Origin: Desulfobacterales bacterium
GTDB taxonomy: Bacteria; Desulfobacterota; Desulfobacteria; Desulfobacterales; UBA2174_A
DNA length: 10,497 nucleotides
Reading direction: 5' to 3'
Assembly (NCBI GenBank): GCA_025454075.1
Contig: JALOPD010000209.1
Span: 1 to 10,497 of the forward strand
The notes under the pieces were generated by a model, which did no database searches, had not been told where the DNA came from, and saw nothing but the letters and a program-made list of their open reading frames with translations. The translations under genes and the position numbers were made by a program. Below, in pieces: positions 2,978-10,497 of this stretch (positions are counted from its first letter, which is position 1; every line of letters starts with the position of its first letter).

Positions 2978-3156
2978 GAGGCTTGACCCTTTCTGCCGAA
3001 GCGCTGTAAATTTCAAAACAGCCGGCGGAGCCGCTCCCAAGCCATACCAAACTCTTTATTATTTAAAAAGATTTTTTTATCTGATATCCATTTAAAACGG
3101 GATCGCAAAACCGGTCGCTTCGACGGCAACGAGCGATTGCGGAAAGGAGGAGTGGG
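2978..3156. promoter_or_regulatory. Divergent intergenic promoter region with AT-rich core
   Basis: This region separates the leftward antiporter operon from the rightward redox operon, so both promoters should lie here. An AT-rich core at about 3051-3098 stands out against GC-rich flanks and holds several runs resembling -10 boxes (TTATTATTTAAAAA; CATTTAAAAC). A small inverted repeat AGAT-T(n)-ATCT lies near 3069-3082. I could not choose one clear -35/-10 pair for either direction. A very strong ribosome-binding site (AAAGGAGG, 3143-3150) precedes the rightward gene by 6 bases. Confidence 0.45.
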
Positions 3157-3732
3157 ATGAAAACGCTTCGGGTGGTCTTTTACCTTGCTATCTGGCTGGG
3201 GGCGACCTTCGGCCTTGCCGCCGCGGCCGAGAGCCAGGCGCCCGCCGAAGGGGCGCCCTTGCCGGAGTTCACGCTGCCGGCGCCCAAGGATGCCGCTCAC
3301 GGCGCTTATCTGGGGGTAAGCGGCAAGAAGGAGTTCACGGTGGCCGACATCAAGGCCGAGGTGGTGATCATCGAGATCTTCAACATGTACTGACCGCACT
3401 GCCAGAGGGAGGCTCCTTCTATCAACGAGGCCTACCGGAAAATCGAGAGCAACCCGAACTTCAAGGGCAAGGTCAAGATGATCGGCATCGGTGTCGGCAA
3501 CTCGGCTTTCGAGGTCGATTATTTCAAGAAAAACTACAACGTGCCGTTTCCGCTTTTTCCGGACCCGGACTTCAAGATCCACAAGCTGGTGGGGGAGGTT
3601 CGGACGCCTTACTTTATCGGTTTGAAAAGTCAGAAAGGAGCCGCCCCCAAGGTGTATTATTCCAAGCTCGGCGGCGCCAACGACGCGGAGGAGCTGCTCA
3701 ACAAGCTGCTGGCCGACGCGGGGCTGCAGTGA
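3157..3732 (+). CDS. Secreted thioredoxin-like selenoprotein (Sec-Pro-His-Cys active site), UGA read as selenocysteine
   Basis: Read through the TGA at 3391-3393, this is one 191-residue protein. Residues 1-24 are a Sec-type signal peptide ending in Ala-Ala-Ala. Residues 34-45 ([12 protein letters not shown]) and 69-82 form the thioredoxin/TlpA-like beta strand leading to the active site EIFNMY-Sec79-Pro80-His81-Cys82. The frame continues as [15 protein letters not shown] and [15 protein letters not shown]. The conserved cis-proline is probably Pro151 in VRTPYFIG, and the protein ends in ADAGLQ. The TGA replaces exactly the attacking Cys of a CxxC redox motif, and coding character is unbroken on both sides, which argues against a pseudogene. 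A hairpin with a G-containing apical loop follows the TGA at SECIS distance. The start has a strong AAAGGAGG site. Family knowledge: such proteins are extracytoplasmic thiol:disulfide reductases or peroxiredoxin partners. The next gene, 9 bases downstream, is a secreted peroxiredoxin, so reducing it is a reasonable guess. The sel genes needed for Sec insertion are not in this window. Confidence 0.9.
3404..3420 (+). promoter_or_regulatory. Candidate bacterial SECIS hairpin downstream of the Sec UGA
   Basis: AGAGGGA (3404-3410) pairs with TCCTTCT (3414-3420) as a 7-bp stem with one G-U pair, and the loop is GGC (3411-3413). The apical loop starts 18 bases after the TGA. Known bacterial SECIS elements have a short stem, at least one G among the first loop bases, and a UGA-to-loop distance of roughly 16-37 bases, so this fits. 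It lies inside the coding sequence, as expected for SelB-dependent decoding in bacteria. The assignment is by hand folding only. Confidence 0.7.
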
Positions 3733-3741
3733 GGAGAAAAA

Positions 3742-4302
3742 ATGAAAACGATCATGGTCGGATTCGCCGTGATGATGGCATTGCTGATCGCCCCCGCCTG
3801 GGCGGGGGCGCAGACACTGAAGGACATGCTCTACGACCCCGGGGTGCTCAAGCCGATCGACAGCACGCTGAAGGTCAAGGTGGGGCAGACGGCCCCTGAT
3901 TTCACGCTGCCTGCGATCTCCGGCGAAAAGGTGCGCCTGAGCCAGTACCGGGGCAAAAAGAACGTCGTGATTTCCTTCGTGCCGGCGGCCTTCACGCCGG
4001 TGTGCTCGGATCAGTGGCCCGGCTACAACATGGCGCGCGGCCTGTTCGAGCAGCACGACGCGATCCTGCTCGGCATCACCGTGGACAGCATCCCCACGCT
4101 GTCGGCCTGGCTGTCGGATTTCTGGCCCCACGGTGCGGTCGCCTCCAAATACGGGCTGCTTCGAAAGGATGGGGTTGCCGAGCGGGCGCTGATCTTCATC
4201 GACAAGAAGGGCGTCATCCGGGACATCGTGGTTTCCGACATCAACAAGCGTCCCGATTTGGAGAAATGCGCCATAGGCTTGGACAAGCTGGACAAGAAAT
4301 AA
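3742..4302 (+). CDS. Secreted thiol peroxiredoxin (AhpC/TSA, PrxQ/AhpE-like)
   Basis: This is a 186-residue peroxiredoxin that would reduce H2O2 or organic hydroperoxides. Residues 1-23 are a signal peptide (hydrophobic core, then AWAGA before Gln24), so it acts outside the cytoplasm. The redoxin fold begins at VGQTAPDFTLPAISGEKV (47-64). The peroxidatic site is intact: Pro81-Ala-Ala-Phe-Thr85-Pro-Val-Cys88, matching PxxxTxxC. Arg148 in ERALIFID is the usual active-site arginine. Cys176 near the C-terminus is the only other Cys and could act as resolving residue, but its position is not that of a classical 2-Cys enzyme. The peroxidatic residue is Cys (TGC), not Sec. The ATG follows GAGGAGAAAAA, and the stop of the selenoprotein gene overlaps this ribosome site, so the two are translated from one message. 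The likely reductant is the neighbouring selenothioredoxin (inference). Confidence 0.9.
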   Translation: MKTIMVGFAVMMALLIAPAWAGAQTLKDMLYDPGVLKPIDSTLKVKVGQTAPDFTLPAISGEKVRLSQYRGKKNVVISFVPAAFTPVCSDQWPGYNMARGLFEQHDAILLGITVDSIPTLSAWLSDFWPHGAVASKYGLLRKDGVAERALIFIDKKGVIRDIVVSDINKRPDLEKCAIGLDKLDKK

Positions 4303-4375: not shown

Positions 4376-4421
4376 AAAAAATCAGTGCATGCCCCTCCCA
4401 AGGGGCACGCACTGATTTTTT
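4376..4421. terminator. Bidirectional intrinsic terminator between convergent genes
   Basis: The left arm (4376-4396) and right arm (4401-4421) pair over 21 positions with one A-C mismatch around the tetraloop CCCA. The outer pairs are A6/T6 runs, so either strand yields a GC-rich stem followed by a U tract. It ends the rightward redox operon and the leftward PA2779-family gene. The TAA stop of that leftward gene (4420-4422) lies partly within the right arm. Confidence 0.9.
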
Positions 4422-5234: not shown

Positions 5235-5606
5235 TTAAATCTTTACACGCTCTAAATTTTCCGTCTCGCCGTCGTGCTCGAATTTCAGCATGAACGATTT
5301 CCCGGTGTCGTCCCACACTCGGGAAAGTTTCCATTCCTTCTCCCCCAAGCTCGTGTCTGAAATACGGAGGATGTAGTTGTCCGATGTGAGCGGTTTCATC
5401 GTGACCGATAGCGTTTTGTCGCCGACAACGATTGTGGTTTTATCACTGCTGAAATTGATGGTAACTTTTTGCTTCGTCGATGGGTTTTGCCATGCACCGC
5501 TGAGGTTGGACATGTCGTTGCCGCCCGAATCGCCGCAGCCGGATACCATCAAAGCCACCGCAACAACGATCAGCAGCCACCAGGGGATCATTTTTGCCCT
5601 TCTCAT
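5235..5606 (-). CDS. Small lipoprotein of unknown function
   Basis: This 123-residue protein begins MRRAK, followed by a hydrophobic core (7-20) and the lipobox VSG-Cys24, a signal peptidase II site. Gly-Asp after the Cys would favour the outer membrane by E. coli rules, which may not apply here. The mature part (about 100 residues) is rich in short beta-like strands (KVTINFSSDKTTIVVGD; SVTMKPLTSDNYILRIS; SFMLKFEHDGETENLERV), suggesting a small beta-sandwich or barrel with one leading tryptophan (LSGAWQNP). No known family is recognised. The first ATG is chosen because GGAGG lies 6 bases upstream; a second ATG at 5591 also has a ribosome site. The gene has lower GC than its surroundings. It is followed by the 33-residue membrane ORF and a terminator. 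Confidence 0.8.
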   Translation of the reverse strand: MRRAKMIPWWLLIVVAVALMVSGCGDSGGNDMSNLSGAWQNPSTKQKVTINFSSDKTTIVVGDKTLSVTMKPLTSDNYILRISDTSLGEKEWKLSRVWDDTGKSFMLKFEHDGETENLERVKI

Positions 5607-6331: not shown

Positions 6332-6664
6332 TTACGTGAGGTGCTGGCTGATGATCTTGGTCATCTCGAACATCGACACCTGCGCCTTGCCGAAGACCGC
6401 CCTCAGCTTATCGTCGGCATTGATCATGCGCTTGTTGCCGGCGTCCTGCAGTCGGTTCTTCTTGATGTAATCCCAGATTTTTTTCACCACCTCCGTGCGC
6501 GGCAGCGGTGCGGCACCCACCACGGCGGCCAGCACGGTGCTCGGGGTCATCGCCTTCATGAAGCCGGCATTGGGGGTGCGCTTTCCCGCCGGCTTGGCGG
6601 CTTTCCTGGGAACGGCTTTCTTCGCGGCGGGCTTCTTGGCAGCAGGCTTCTTCGTTGTAACCAT
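6332..6664 (-). CDS. SWIB/MDM2-domain protein with histone H1-like lysine/alanine tail
   Basis: This is a 110-residue basic protein. Residues 2-30 are a disordered tail built from repeated AAKKP-like units (KKPAAKKPAAKKAVPRKAAK), resembling histone H1 and bacterial HU/H1-like tails. Residues about 35-109 are a SWIB domain (FMKAMTPSTVLAAVVGAAPL, PRTEVVKKIWDYIKKNRLQD, KRMINADDKLRAVF, VSMFEMTKIISQHL) close to the family consensus. In eukaryotes SWIB occurs in chromatin-remodelling subunits. In bacteria it is a small stand-alone protein of unproven role, best known in Chlamydia; DNA or nucleoid binding is inferred from the tail. Start choice: AGGAG abuts the ATG at 6670 with no spacing but lies 6 bases before the ATG at 6664, so the latter is preferred (two residues shorter). 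It is apparently monocistronic, with a dyad upstream and a hairpin downstream. Confidence 0.92.
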   Translation of the reverse strand: MVTTKKPAAKKPAAKKAVPRKAAKPAGKRTPNAGFMKAMTPSTVLAAVVGAAPLPRTEVVKKIWDYIKKNRLQDAGNKRMINADDKLRAVFGKAQVSMFEMTKIISQHLT

Positions 6665-6700
6665 ACTCATCTCCTATTTTGGGGTTGCACCTTAACCGCT

Positions 6701-6944: not shown

Positions 6945-9900
6945 ATGGCTTCTGATAAAACGATACACCCCCTGGCGCTCGAAAGTCTCTTCGGGCCCGC
7001 AGGCATCGCCGCGGATGAAAACGGCGACGGGTACCCGGATCGGTTGAAGGTCGGCATCCGTGTCGAACCCCGGCTTTCCGATGCAAACCTTTGGGCTCAA
7101 ATACTGAACCTCGCGGCGCGGCTGGCGGGCGAGGTGACCGCGCTGGACCTGCCGGTCGTCAAGGCCTTGCCCCGTGCCTCCGCGGGCGCGGCGGCGCTCG
7201 TCGTCCACCGGCCGTCGAAGCGTCACCCCTGCGAGGTGGAGCTGCGGCGGTCGGCCCGAGCGGTCCATCTGGCAGGCCGCTCAGCGGCACGCATGGCCGA
7301 AGTGCTTTACTCCCTGGCCGTGCACGGCGGCCGGCCGCGAGGCGAGAGCAGGCCGTGGTCGTCCCTGCGTGTCGCCGAAAACGAAGCCCTGGTGCTGGAG
7401 GCCTTCGACCGGCGGGGGAGAGGGGTCGGCCGTTTTCAGCTGTCGCCGGCGCGCCCGGCGGCCGAGAAGAAGGGCGTCGAGCGCTTCGATCTGCTGGACC
7501 TGGCGGGTGCGCTGTATCGCGTTTCCGCCGAAAACCCGCGTGCCAAGGAGCTTGCGCTCGCCATCGAGCTTCCCCGCCTCAGGCTTTCCTTCCAGGCCGG
7601 GCTCGCCCTGTCGGAAGCGGTCGTGCGCGCGGCGCTGGAGGCCACGCGCGTGGAGCTGCCGCTGGCCGTCTCCGGGCCGGGCCGGGCGGGCGGGGTGGTG
7701 TTGCGGGTCGCGGAGCGCCCCAACCGCGGCGCCCGACTATCCGTCGAGAAGGGGGAGAACGCCAGCGGGGTCATCGTCCGTGCCGAGGGCGACGCGCGCA
7801 GCCTGGCGGCCCTGCTTCGGGATTGGGCGAGCATCGGCTTTGCCGCAGGGGGGCCGGCCGGCGAGGGAGTCCGGCGCCTGCGCGGCCGCATCGATGGGCT
7901 CCTGGACATGATCGCTGCCGGAGCGCCGCCGGCGGCCCGGGATGTGCCGGCGGCGGTCCGGCGTCGGCTGGCCTGGCGCCCGGAGACCGAGCGCCTGATC
8001 GCGGTCGTGCGCCGCGTTCCGCCCGGCCGCGGCGTCCTCCACGGTTTGGCCCTGGTCAGCCGGCCCGGGAAGGCGAGAACGCAGGTGCGGCGCGACATCG
8101 AGAGCATCCTGCGCGCCAAGGGGTATGCGCCCGCGATCGTCGTCCTGAACGCCTACAAGCCCGGGCTCTCCTGGCTGCGGGAGGTCGTGCAGCCGGCGCT
8201 CGAAGCCATTCCCCGGCTGGAGCGCGTGCGGATCGCCTTCCGCGGGTTCGCACCCGACCCGCCGGCCCTCGAGATGCGATCCCGCTGGCTGCAGGAGCTC
8301 TATCCCGGGCCGGACCTGCTGGCGACCGCGCTGGGGCTGCCCCTGGAGCGGGTGCGGCTTTCCATGCGCACACGGCAGCGCGAGGCCTATGCCGTAACGG
8401 CCTGGGACCGCGACGGCACCCGGGTCTATCGAGCGGGCTTCACGCCGCGGGCGAGCCGTTTGCCGTACCTTCCCGGCTACCCGGAGGCGGGATGGGTGCA
8501 CCCGAGCACCGGGGGAATCCGGTTGACTCAGTCCGGCCGCGTGCTTGTGGACGAGAGCCTCCCGACCGACCGCGAGCGTTTCTGGCGCTTCTTTCAGGAG
8601 AGCATCCTGCCGGCGCTCGAAAACGGCATGACCGACAGAATTGCCGACGGCGGGGGCCTGCCGACGGCGTTCTGGGAAGAGGCGGCCATCGATGTGCGCA
8701 TCCCTGAGACCGACGAGCGCCTGGGGATCGGCGAGGAGCGCATCGCGCCGCTGGAAGCCCTGCACGAGGACCTTTATTTCGTGCTGCTGGATCATTTCCG
8801 GCTTTTCGCCGAGAAGCACGGGCTGCCGGTCGAAAGCCAGTTCGGGCGGATCCTGCCGCGGGTTTCGGCGGCTGCGCCGCGCGGGCGGCCTGACGCCCGC
8901 TTCCGGGCGCGGCCGTTCACGCAAGCTCCGGCGTCCTGCGCCGTTGCCCCGGCTGCGGCCGCCAGGGTCGCGTCCATCGGAATGGAGGCGGGGCGTTTGG
9001 GGTTCGAGATCGAGGCCGGCCAGCCGCTCGCCGCAAACGGCATGGCGGAGGAGCTGTGCCGGAGGGCGCGCTCCCGCGGCCTGGACCTCGGCATCGACGC
9101 CCGCACAGGCTGTTTCATTTTCCGAGCGGCGCGGCCCCGGCCGCCCGCCATCGTCAGGCGCAGTACCGCCAAGAAAGCCGCGCCGCTCGCGCCGCCGCTC
9201 GACCGGCTGCTCCCCATGCGGGAGGTGGGGCGCCGGGTCCGGCGGCTCGCGGATCTGCCCCACCTCAGCGCCTGGCAGGCCGGAACCACTTGGCAGGGCC
9301 GCGGCATCTGGGCACTGGAGGCGGTTCTATCGGGCGGCGGAGGGCTTGCCTCGCTCGCCCGCGCCCGGCTGCTCAAACCGACGCTGCTCATCAACGCCCG
9401 GCACCACGCCAACGAGGTGTCCAGCACCAACGCGGCCCTGCGGCTGGCCTGGGAGCTCGCCGCCACGCCCTGGGGGCGCGAGGCCCTCCAGCGGGTGAAC
9501 GTCGCCATCGTCCCGCTCGAGAACCCGGACGGGGTCGCCACCCTGGAGGCGCTGCTGCCCGGCTGCGCCGACCACAAGCTCCACGCCGCGCGCTACAACG
9601 CCCTTGGGGCGGAGTGGTACGGCGACTATTTCCGGGAGCCGCCGCGCTTTCCCGAGGCCCGGGTCAAGCCGCTCCTGTGGCGGCGCTGGCTGCCGCTCGT
9701 CGTCCTGGACGCCCACGGGGTGCCCAGCCACGAGTGGGACCAGCCCTTCTCGGGCTGCGCCCCCGGCCGCTTCCGGCAGTTCTGGATCCCGCGGGCGTTC
9801 ATCTATGCGATCGTGCCGTTCATCGATGAAAATTCCCACCCCGGCCATAGGCCGGCGCGGGAAATTTCAAAATTCATGGCCCGGGCAATCAGGGCCAATC

Positions 9901-10265
9901 AAGAAATTCAAAAATTGGACCGCGAGCTGAAGGACCGATATGCCCGCTACGCTCGGTCGTGGGACCCGGAGGTGTTCCCTCCGACGGGCGGTAGAGGCCT
10001 AACGGTGCTTCCGAGCGAGAAACGTCTGGCCGGCATGAACTTCGGCGTGCAGCGCTTTCCGGTGACGATTTCCGAGATCGTCACCGAGGTGACCGACGAG
10101 GTGGTTTCCGGCCGATTGCTGGGACTATGCGCCAAAGCCCACCTGGCGGCCGCCAAGGCGCTGCTGGGATGGCTCGGGCGCCAGGCGCCGGGCCGGCTGG
10201 TGCGGAAACGATCGCGGGAGAGCGGGCTGGTGCTCTCCTGGGAGGCCGGGAAGCGCAAGCGATGA
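6945..10265 (+). CDS. Very large M14-family zinc carboxypeptidase-like protein with N-terminal calcium-loop motif
   Basis: This is a 1106-residue protein with no signal peptide or membrane segment. Near the N-terminus DENGDGYPD (24-32) matches a DxNxDGxxD calcium-binding loop. Residues about 35-790 are not assigned to a known family; they include Arg/Ala-rich alpha/beta stretches and a conserved-looking core around 400-690 (LNAYKPGLSWLREVVQPALE; YLPGYPEAGWVHPSTGGIRL; EDLYFVLLDHFRLFAEKHGL). The C-terminal domain carries M14 hallmarks: His821-Ala-Asn-Glu824 (HxxE zinc ligands), the substrate-pocket-like ENPDGV (859-864), and DAHG with His924 as the probable third ligand, about 100 residues after the first. 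ISEIVTE (1042-1048) may supply the catalytic Glu. Activity would be release of C-terminal residues or hydrolysis of an amide; the substrate is unknown. GGAGAGG precedes the ATG. The GC content is very high, which creates long meaningless frames on the other strand. It appears to stand alone. Confidence 0.88.
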   Translation: MASDKTIHPLALESLFGPAGIAADENGDGYPDRLKVGIRVEPRLSDANLWAQILNLAARLAGEVTALDLPVVKALPRASAGAAALVVHRPSKRHPCEVELRRSARAVHLAGRSAARMAEVLYSLAVHGGRPRGESRPWSSLRVAENEALVLEAFDRRGRGVGRFQLSPARPAAEKKGVERFDLLDLAGALYRVSAENPRAKELALAIELPRLRLSFQAGLALSEAVVRAALEATRVELPLAVSGPGRAGGVVLRVAERPNRGARLSVEKGENASGVIVRAEGDARSLAALLRDWASIGFAAGGPAGEGVRRLRGRIDGLLDMIAAGAPPAARDVPAAVRRRLAWRPETERLIAVVRRVPPGRGVLHGLALVSRPGKARTQVRRDIESILRAKGYAPAIVVLNAYKPGLSWLREVVQPALEAIPRLERVRIAFRGFAPDPPALEMRSRWLQELYPGPDLLATALGLPLERVRLSMRTRQREAYAVTAWDRDGTRVYRAGFTPRASRLPYLPGYPEAGWVHPSTGGIRLTQSGRVLVDESLPTDRERFWRFFQESILPALENGMTDRIADGGGLPTAFWEEAAIDVRIPETDERLGIGEERIAPLEALHEDLYFVLLDHFRLFAEKHGLPVESQFGRILPRVSAAAPRGRPDARFRARPFTQAPASCAVAPAAAARVASIGMEAGRLGFEIEAGQPLAANGMAEELCRRARSRGLDLGIDARTGCFIFRAARPRPPAIVRRSTAKKAAPLAPPLDRLLPMREVGRRVRRLADLPHLSAWQAGTTWQGRGIWALEAVLSGGGGLASLARARLLKPTLLINARHHANEVSSTNAALRLAWELAATPWGREALQRVNVAIVPLENPDGVATLEALLPGCADHKLHAARYNALGAEWYGDYFREPPRFPEARVKPLLWRRWLPLVVLDAHGVPSHEWDQPFSGCAPGRFRQFWIPRAFIYAIVPFIDENSHPGHRPAREISKFMARAIRANQEIQKLDRELKDRYARYARSWDPEVFPPTGGRGLTVLPSEKRLAGMNFGVQRFPVTISEIVTEVTDEVVSGRLLGLCAKAHLAAAKALLGWLGRQAPGRLVRKRSRESGLVLSWEAGKRKR

Positions 10266-10436
10266 AGACTGAGAAGGCCAAACAGCAAAATCAAAGATCC
10301 GGACGCCCAAACACCCAGCACACCCCATTGCAGGCGCCGCGGATTTGAGCTATGACTCCGGCAGTTAAATTTGCCGATTCCAGGCAGATCTTGGCACGTT
10401 TATTAATCGTCTCGAAATAGTATGGACCGAGAGCGA
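10266..10436. other. Intergenic DNA after the M14 gene
   Basis: No convincing gene, ribosome site or U-tract terminator is visible between the M14 stop and the palindrome. Base composition drops from the very high GC of the M14 gene to a more mixed sequence. Confidence 0.5.
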
Positions 10437-10491
10437 CCCCCTCTCCCTTACCCTCTCCCCCAGTCCTGGGGGAGAGGGCAGGGTGAGGGGG
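10437..10491. repeat. REP-like long imperfect palindrome of the CCCTCTCCC / GGGAGAGGG type
   Basis: The left arm 10437-10463 and right arm 10466-10491 are inverted copies with a TC loop. The inner 12 bases (CCCTCTCCCCCAG / CTGGGGGAGAGGG) pair perfectly, and the outer parts carry a few mismatches and one extra base. Very similar C-rich palindromes occur as dispersed intergenic elements in many GC-rich bacteria. It lies in the intergenic DNA after the M14 gene and may extend past the window edge. Confidence 0.8.
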
Positions 10492-10497
10492 CGTCCG

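Follow-up and report, generated by a model that had tools for sequence, protein, structure and literature searches.

An internal UGA in a ResA/TlpA-like redoxin gene of Desulfobacterales very probably encodes selenocysteine

Does a TGA codon in the middle of a redoxin gene end a broken reading frame, or does it specify an amino acid? The question is raised by a gene on contig JALOPD010000209.1 from a Desulfobacterales bacterium, of which we analyzed a stretch of 10,497 nucleotides (nt), here called the window. A preliminary description, made from the letters of the window, had proposed an easily missed selenoprotein with a Sec-Pro-His-Cys site. Reading of the open reading frame (ORF) from 3157 to 3732 bears out the starting point of that proposal: the frame is interrupted solely by a TGA at codon 79 (3391 to 3393). 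The TGA also falls, as described, on the first Cys of a CxxC (CPHC) site, a position at which 86 of 115 homologous genes have a Cys codon. The continuous thioredoxin-like fold claimed to run across it is recovered in the read-through protein, which matches PF00578 over residues 32 to 159 (E = 7e-12; 45.8 bits against a cut-off of 26) and has a thioredoxin fold in an AF2 model. The resulting motif, UPHC at residues 79 to 82, is of the UxxC and not the TxxU type. Judged by comparison with homologs, UGA codon 79 almost certainly encodes selenocysteine (Sec), which would make this a real selenoprotein gene. Its features are collected in Table 1.

Table 1. Features of the redoxin gene and its surroundings, in window coordinates
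Feature	Position	Strand	Basis
Shine-Dalgarno-like aaaggagg, with the ATG 6 nt further	3143..3150	+	Sequence
Predicted selenoprotein gene for a 191-residue ResA/TlpA-like oxidoreductase (PF00578) with Sec79	3157..3732	+	Homologs, Pfam, structure model
In-frame TGA, codon 79, predicted to be read as selenocysteine, first residue of UPHC	3391..3393	+	Only TGA, TGC, or TGT across 115 homologs
Codon of Cys82, second redox residue of UxxC	3400..3402	+	Invariant in 39-row alignment
Predicted SECIS hairpin, type 1, 7 bp, loop GGC (3411-3413), 17 nt from UGA to loop	3404..3420	+	Folding, conservation, covariation
84-aa orphan ORF called by gene callers in place of the second half	3478..3732	+	Table 11 ORFs, database matches
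Thr-Pro codons 150-151, probable cis-Pro loop of the thioredoxin fold	3604..3609	+	Invariant in 39-row alignment
Terminal TGA, taken as the real stop	3730..3732	+	Similar end points in homologs
Peroxiredoxin (PF00578), PAAFTPVC (PxxxTxxC) site, 9 nt past the redoxin stop	3742..4302	+	Pfam, neighborhood
Strong terminator-like hairpin past the redoxin-peroxiredoxin pair	4376..4421	.	z = -7.64; A-run and T-run on both sides; scan finds it on the - strand only

The 115 homologous genes with DNA consist of the window gene and 114 loci, each aligned to residue 79. They comprise all matches listed with E ≤ 1.3e-45, plus L001 to L007; L012 was left out as a duplicate of L001, and the weaker matches in the list, flagged as being without internal stops, were left out as well. 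The codon at site 79 is TGA in 29 of these genes, TGC in 54, TGT in 32, and nothing else, and the motif at the site in this branch is YUPxC, where x is H, F, Y, or T. Cys likewise occupies position 79 in 117 of the 120 full-length database relatives listed, so that homologs with Cys at this position, which the preliminary description had suggested looking for, were found, and not every homolog ends at the TGA. This predominance of Cys, together with the single base that separates TGA from TGC and TGT, is what could be said for an ordinary CPHC redoxin hit by a nonsense mutation or misread in sequencing, in which case the gene would be a pseudogene or its sequence wrong. We hold this to be very improbable. 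The same TGA occurs in 28 other genes, which in practice rules out a sequencing error at this codon, and a shared hairpin accompanies TGA but is mostly absent where the codon is for Cys. Moreover, between the window gene and L001 the differences after the TGA number 18, 11, and 37 at codon positions 1, 2, and 3, respectively (111 codons). Since they lie mainly at third positions, the second half appears to have been kept in frame, and the frame downstream of the TGA looks selected.

A reading of TGA as tryptophan in the window organism (code 4/25) is more improbable still, although 3 of the 120 listed relatives, P0002, P0012, and P0013, do have Trp at the Sec position (MYWPFC). The Cys found at the site in all other listed relatives and in the majority of the DNA rows speaks against it, as does the use of TGA to terminate both this gene and the gene at 6945 to 10265; the neighboring genes are also open under table 11. 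(We take the terminal TGA of the redoxin gene as a true stop because the ends of its homologs about coincide.) Around that residue the three relatives read like Sec genes, for instance L016 and L027 (MY-x-PFCQKEAPS), and their Trp probably comes from a gene caller applying code 4 to TGA on short contigs.

We return to selenocysteine and to the hairpin that would direct its insertion. A hairpin with a G-rich loop had been noted just after the UGA; it is present, with 7 bp, a GGC loop, and a folding energy of -7.3 kcal/mol. It is conserved together with the TGA: in 24 of the 29 Sec genes at least 6 of the 7 pairs can form around a GGC loop at the same spacing, whereas 5 of 86 Cys genes reach 6 or 7 pairs. 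The 24 genes (type 1) were separated from the remaining 5 by eye, before pairs were counted, and the codon and pairing counts were repeated on all 29. Across all 29 Sec genes, unselected, 170 of 203 cells are paired; for the Cys genes the figure is 268 of 602. The clearest sign of a SECIS element is the synonymous codon choice at Ala86, which keeps the predicted hairpin. GCT encodes Ala86 in 24 of the 29 Sec genes and in 15 of 86 Cys homologs (Fisher P = 4e-10); elsewhere in the Sec genes it accounts for 54 of 316 Ala codons (Fisher P = 7e-13). Both P values are indicative only, given the kinship of the rows. Within the 24 hairpin-bearing Sec genes, GCT stands at Ala86 in 23.

Covariation points the same way. 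Columns 17 and 27, in which the Lys/Arg codon faces the wobble position of Pro87, are G-C in 12 of the 24 type 1 genes, A-U in 9, and G-U in 3, with no mismatch, and pair 16-28 is open in 7. In total, 94.0% of cells in the type 1 helix are paired in these genes, a figure that is partly by construction because the rows were chosen for having the hairpin, while shifted partners give 49 to 63%; the covariation score of 0.168 was equalled or exceeded by 0 of 500 shuffles. Folding energy discriminates less. For the 48 nt starting at the UGA, folding is no stronger than in shuffled sequence (z = -0.12; 85/200 as good), and the 19-nt hairpin gives a z of -1.96, with 5 of 200 shuffles as good, so that it is conservation across homologs, not folding energy, that sets the hairpin above chance.

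Section 5 of PMC13188914 gives a SECIS rule: an apical loop of 3 to 9 nt with a G in its first two positions, 16 to 37 nt from the UGA, a stem of 4 to 16 bp, and a minimum free energy of ≤ -7.5. The window site passes the rule as we coded it (GGC loop at 17 nt; 11 pairs and -8.5 kcal/mol for the best stretch; no upper stem limit being set). The coded rules are also satisfied downstream of 134 of the 300 codons sampled from four other window genes, and we rejected them as a stand-alone test, unspecific as they are in this GC-rich window. At the site itself they pass in 21 of 29 Sec genes and in 5 of 86 Cys homologs. The eight Sec genes that fail are L027, L028, L040, and L055, which are of type 1 with too weak a fold, and L053, L054, L056, and L057, whose hairpin lies in another register. 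Competing folds of the longer stretch occur in some type 1 genes (L027, L040).

The TGA genes without the hairpin at +17 are these last four and L060 (2 or 3 of 7 pairs each). L053, L054, L056, and L057 share CGUUC-CGGGU-GAACG (-4.3 kcal/mol), which has a stem of 5 bp and places the loop 24 nt past the UGA; the loop of L056 reads CGUGU instead of CGGGU. L060 has CGGGU at the equal offset (+24) within a different stem, and it passes the coded rules via another hairpin. The +24 hairpin is a candidate for an alternative SECIS, drawn from four close relatives. The four are placed elsewhere in the tree, where they and five Cys genes make up a supported group of nine.

The window gene itself groups with L001, L013, and L014, all of them Sec forms (support 100/99). 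When the Sec label is laid on the tree, 9 changes are needed, 5 of which are forced by well-supported branches. An AU test rejected a single clade of Sec forms (P = 9e-7), whose log-likelihood was lower by 149.9; the group was named by codon rather than taken from the tree, the bootstrap was unsettled, and some rows were long-branched. Among the Cys genes, L066 (7/7 pairs) and L033 (6/7) keep the type 1 hairpin with its GGC loop, remnants that fit a recent change from Sec to Cys.

Does an organism of this kind have the means to read UGA as Sec? Here the evidence comes from the genomes of relatives. In the nearest of them, G001, the redoxin (locus L001) is 77% identical and syntenic, and six window genes are shared in synteny at 75 to 84% identity: a PAS/GAF protein, CitMHS, the redoxin, the peroxiredoxin, a DUF6627 protein, and an M14 protein. 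The small window genes at 5235 to 5606 and 6332 to 6670 have no match in L001. G001 carries a tRNA-Sec with anticodon tca, selA, two selB over cut-off, and two selD over cut-off with one TGA inside each. Among the 28 Sec-form genomes, SelB is over cut-off in 23, and tRNA-Sec is found at E ≤ 1e-9 in 22, with only 103 candidates per genome scored; of the six misses, four are fragmented assemblies, and G158 and G282 have nearly all bases on one contig. SelA is over cut-off in 27 of the 28, and also in 81 of 85 Cys-form genomes (49/52 plus 32/33). Because nearly all genomes carry SelA, its co-occurrence does not discriminate, and we rejected it as evidence for the Sec form.

In 3 of the 28 Sec-form genomes, a divergent tRNA-Sec (55 to 58 bits) lies about 35 to 45 nt upstream of a divergent selB match, at L051 4805-6342 (G001:C11), G134:C100:12719-14739, and G264:C246:1622-3666, the tca anticodon being confirmed in L051 only. 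All three hold a stronger selB elsewhere, and a second, stronger tRNA-Sec was seen in G001 only. A short selB-like frame of 366 to 422 aa, matching only the first 275 to 332 of the 581 SelB model positions (185 to 193 bits), occurs in 9 of the 28 genomes: G072, G152, G063, G179, G095, G207, G264, G158, and G035.

Elsewhere in the window, the 1,106-aa product of the gene at 6945 to 10265 has an M14 carboxypeptidase-like match at residues 776 to 865 and no other Pfam match, and is 77% identical over its length in L001. A GC-rich palindromic repeat (ccctctcccc...ggggagaggg) at 10433 to 10494 is perhaps a dispersed repeat. An Rfam scan of the window (E ≤ 5) returned 10 matches, none at its family gathering score, and seven of these were microRNA models on this repeat.

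How new is the gene? The preliminary description had called it unrecognised, which holds for the branch and its annotation but not for the kind, since deltaproteobacterial Prx-like UxxC selenoproteins are in print (PMC1794560, PMC13188914). Table 1 of PMC13188914, a survey of 119 selenoprotein families and subfamilies, includes a "Prx-like thiol:disulfide oxidoreductase" with PF00578 and UxxC, and passages of PMC1794560 and PMC1088965 place the Prx-like UxxC family in Desulfotalea, Geobacter, and Syntrophus as well as in the Sargasso Sea. The window protein resembles that family in PF00578, UxxC, the thioredoxin-like active site, and the deltaproteobacterial hosts described in PMC1794560, whereas the window branch is distinguished by YUPxC and by its peroxiredoxin neighbor. 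By domain and motif it would fall under this family, whose listed representative is WP_010940744.1, and it looks like a new, under-annotated member or branch of an already known kind. Literature searches found no paper on UPHC with selenocysteine and none joining selenoprotein, TlpA, Desulfobacter, and UGA, although the branch may still be in print. Of the related surveys, PMC8318568 reports 34 putative selenoproteins in a marine deltaproteobacterium, itemized in its supplementary tables, and a passage of PMC12013277 gives selenoprotein counts for Desulfosarcina genomes with the families unnamed there.

Annotation tells how such genes come to be missed. Both the truncated 78-aa ORF (3157 to 3393) and the 84-aa orphan expected from automatic annotation are present as table 11 ORFs, and the orphan stands in databases as a separate protein, P0122 (84 aa, 96% identical), which is called "peroxiredoxin" in one source; many relatives are named hypothetical protein. 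The 84-aa tail matches 277 protein clusters, and all of the 120 listed start at residues 89 to 108, downstream of the UGA. This failure fits with the NCBIfam collection, which has no model above cut-off for the window redoxin. The ResA model NF002854 scores it at 42.9 bits, below its cut-off of 170. NF041054, by its name a ResA-like selenoprotein (WAxxUGC) and so likewise a ResA-like redoxin with Sec, has no match to it at E 0.01 and matches only the neighboring peroxiredoxin, weakly (15.8 bits against a cut-off of 300).

What might the protein do? The AF2 model, built from a 39-row alignment with Cys in place of Sec (pLDDT 89.8, pTM 0.81), has as its best PDB matches in Foldseek the ResA-type structures 4nmu, 3c71, and 1su9, and 3c71, a ResA CPHC variant, is matched in sequence as well (E = 1.3e-9). 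Its likeness to the ResA/TlpA/CcmG oxidoreductases thus extends to both fold and sequence, the difference being the Sec that replaces their first Cys. Columns invariant in the alignment include Pro80, Cys82, Thr150, and Pro151. The first 24 or so residues resemble a signal peptide, and the protein is probably periplasmic; the N-terminus of the neighboring peroxiredoxin looks like a signal peptide too. A relative of this peroxiredoxin lies downstream of the redoxin in 50 of 54 rows (the window included, counting rows with at least 450 nt there), starting 7 to 357 nt past the end of the redoxin match and retaining its cysteine in 50 of 50. Cys and Sec forms both show the pairing; the rows without it are L002, L018, L032, and L060. 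CitMHS was rejected as a functional partner, being a divergent neighbor in just 10 of 55 rows. The window peroxiredoxin is 11 to 12 residues shorter than the four relatives shown, with a gap between (S/Y/H)AW and LSDFWPHG, and a 7-base direct repeat, ctgtcgg, lies inside its gene at 4099 to 4105 and 4111 to 4117; the gap may reflect either a true loss of sequence or a collapse during assembly.

From these features we propose that SelB and tRNA-Sec would recognize the hairpin and decode the codon-79 UGA as selenocysteine. The product would be an exported ResA/TlpA-like thiol-disulfide oxidoreductase of thioredoxin fold, in which a Sec79-Cys82 selenenylsulfide cycle would pass electrons to extracytoplasmic substrates (disulfides or sulfenic acids), foremost among the candidates the peroxiredoxin encoded just downstream. 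Sequence comparison shows the Sec/Cys exchange at one codon, the conservation of the hairpin, the predicted fold, and the pairing of the genes, whereas export, redox activity, and the role of the peroxiredoxin as substrate are inferred. We favor an exported two-protein unit for peroxide or disulfide reduction, with the Sec-redoxin presumably reducing the peroxiredoxin, because of the ResA-like fold, the signal-peptide-like N-termini, the pairing in most rows, and the terminator-like hairpin after the pair. The selenoprotein could itself be a peroxidase or a general disulfide oxidoreductase that is merely cotranscribed with the peroxiredoxin, a reading of substantial though clearly less than even probability: PF00578 is common to peroxiredoxins, gene pairing is the one link between the two proteins, and the neighbor is missing in 4 rows. 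Its UxxC site, however, is unlike the TxxU/TxxC of peroxiredoxins, ResA is nearest by fold and sequence, and the pairing is kept widely in both forms.

Taken jointly, the gene would belong to a distinct selenoprotein subfamily of Desulfobacterales and their kin that is without a model of its own and forms a selenium-boosted extracytoplasmic peroxide-reduction pair, the Sec-redoxin reducing a PxxxTxxC peroxiredoxin. In it, one codon would have gained and lost Sec repeatedly, and SECIS elements would have been built in different registers of that coding sequence in at least two such lineages (GGC at +17, CGGGU at +24). We offer this joint reading tentatively, as falling a little short of an even chance.

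The chief interest of the family lies in the scale of its misannotation, its genes often being cut in two in public databases, in the recurrent exchange of Sec and Cys with its SECIS remnants, and in the frequent peroxiredoxin partner. It offers a dense natural series of Sec/Cys exchanges in one gene pair, with remnants of the SECIS in some Cys genes, on which one could test directly in what order the SECIS is lost, the codon changes, and the partner adapts.
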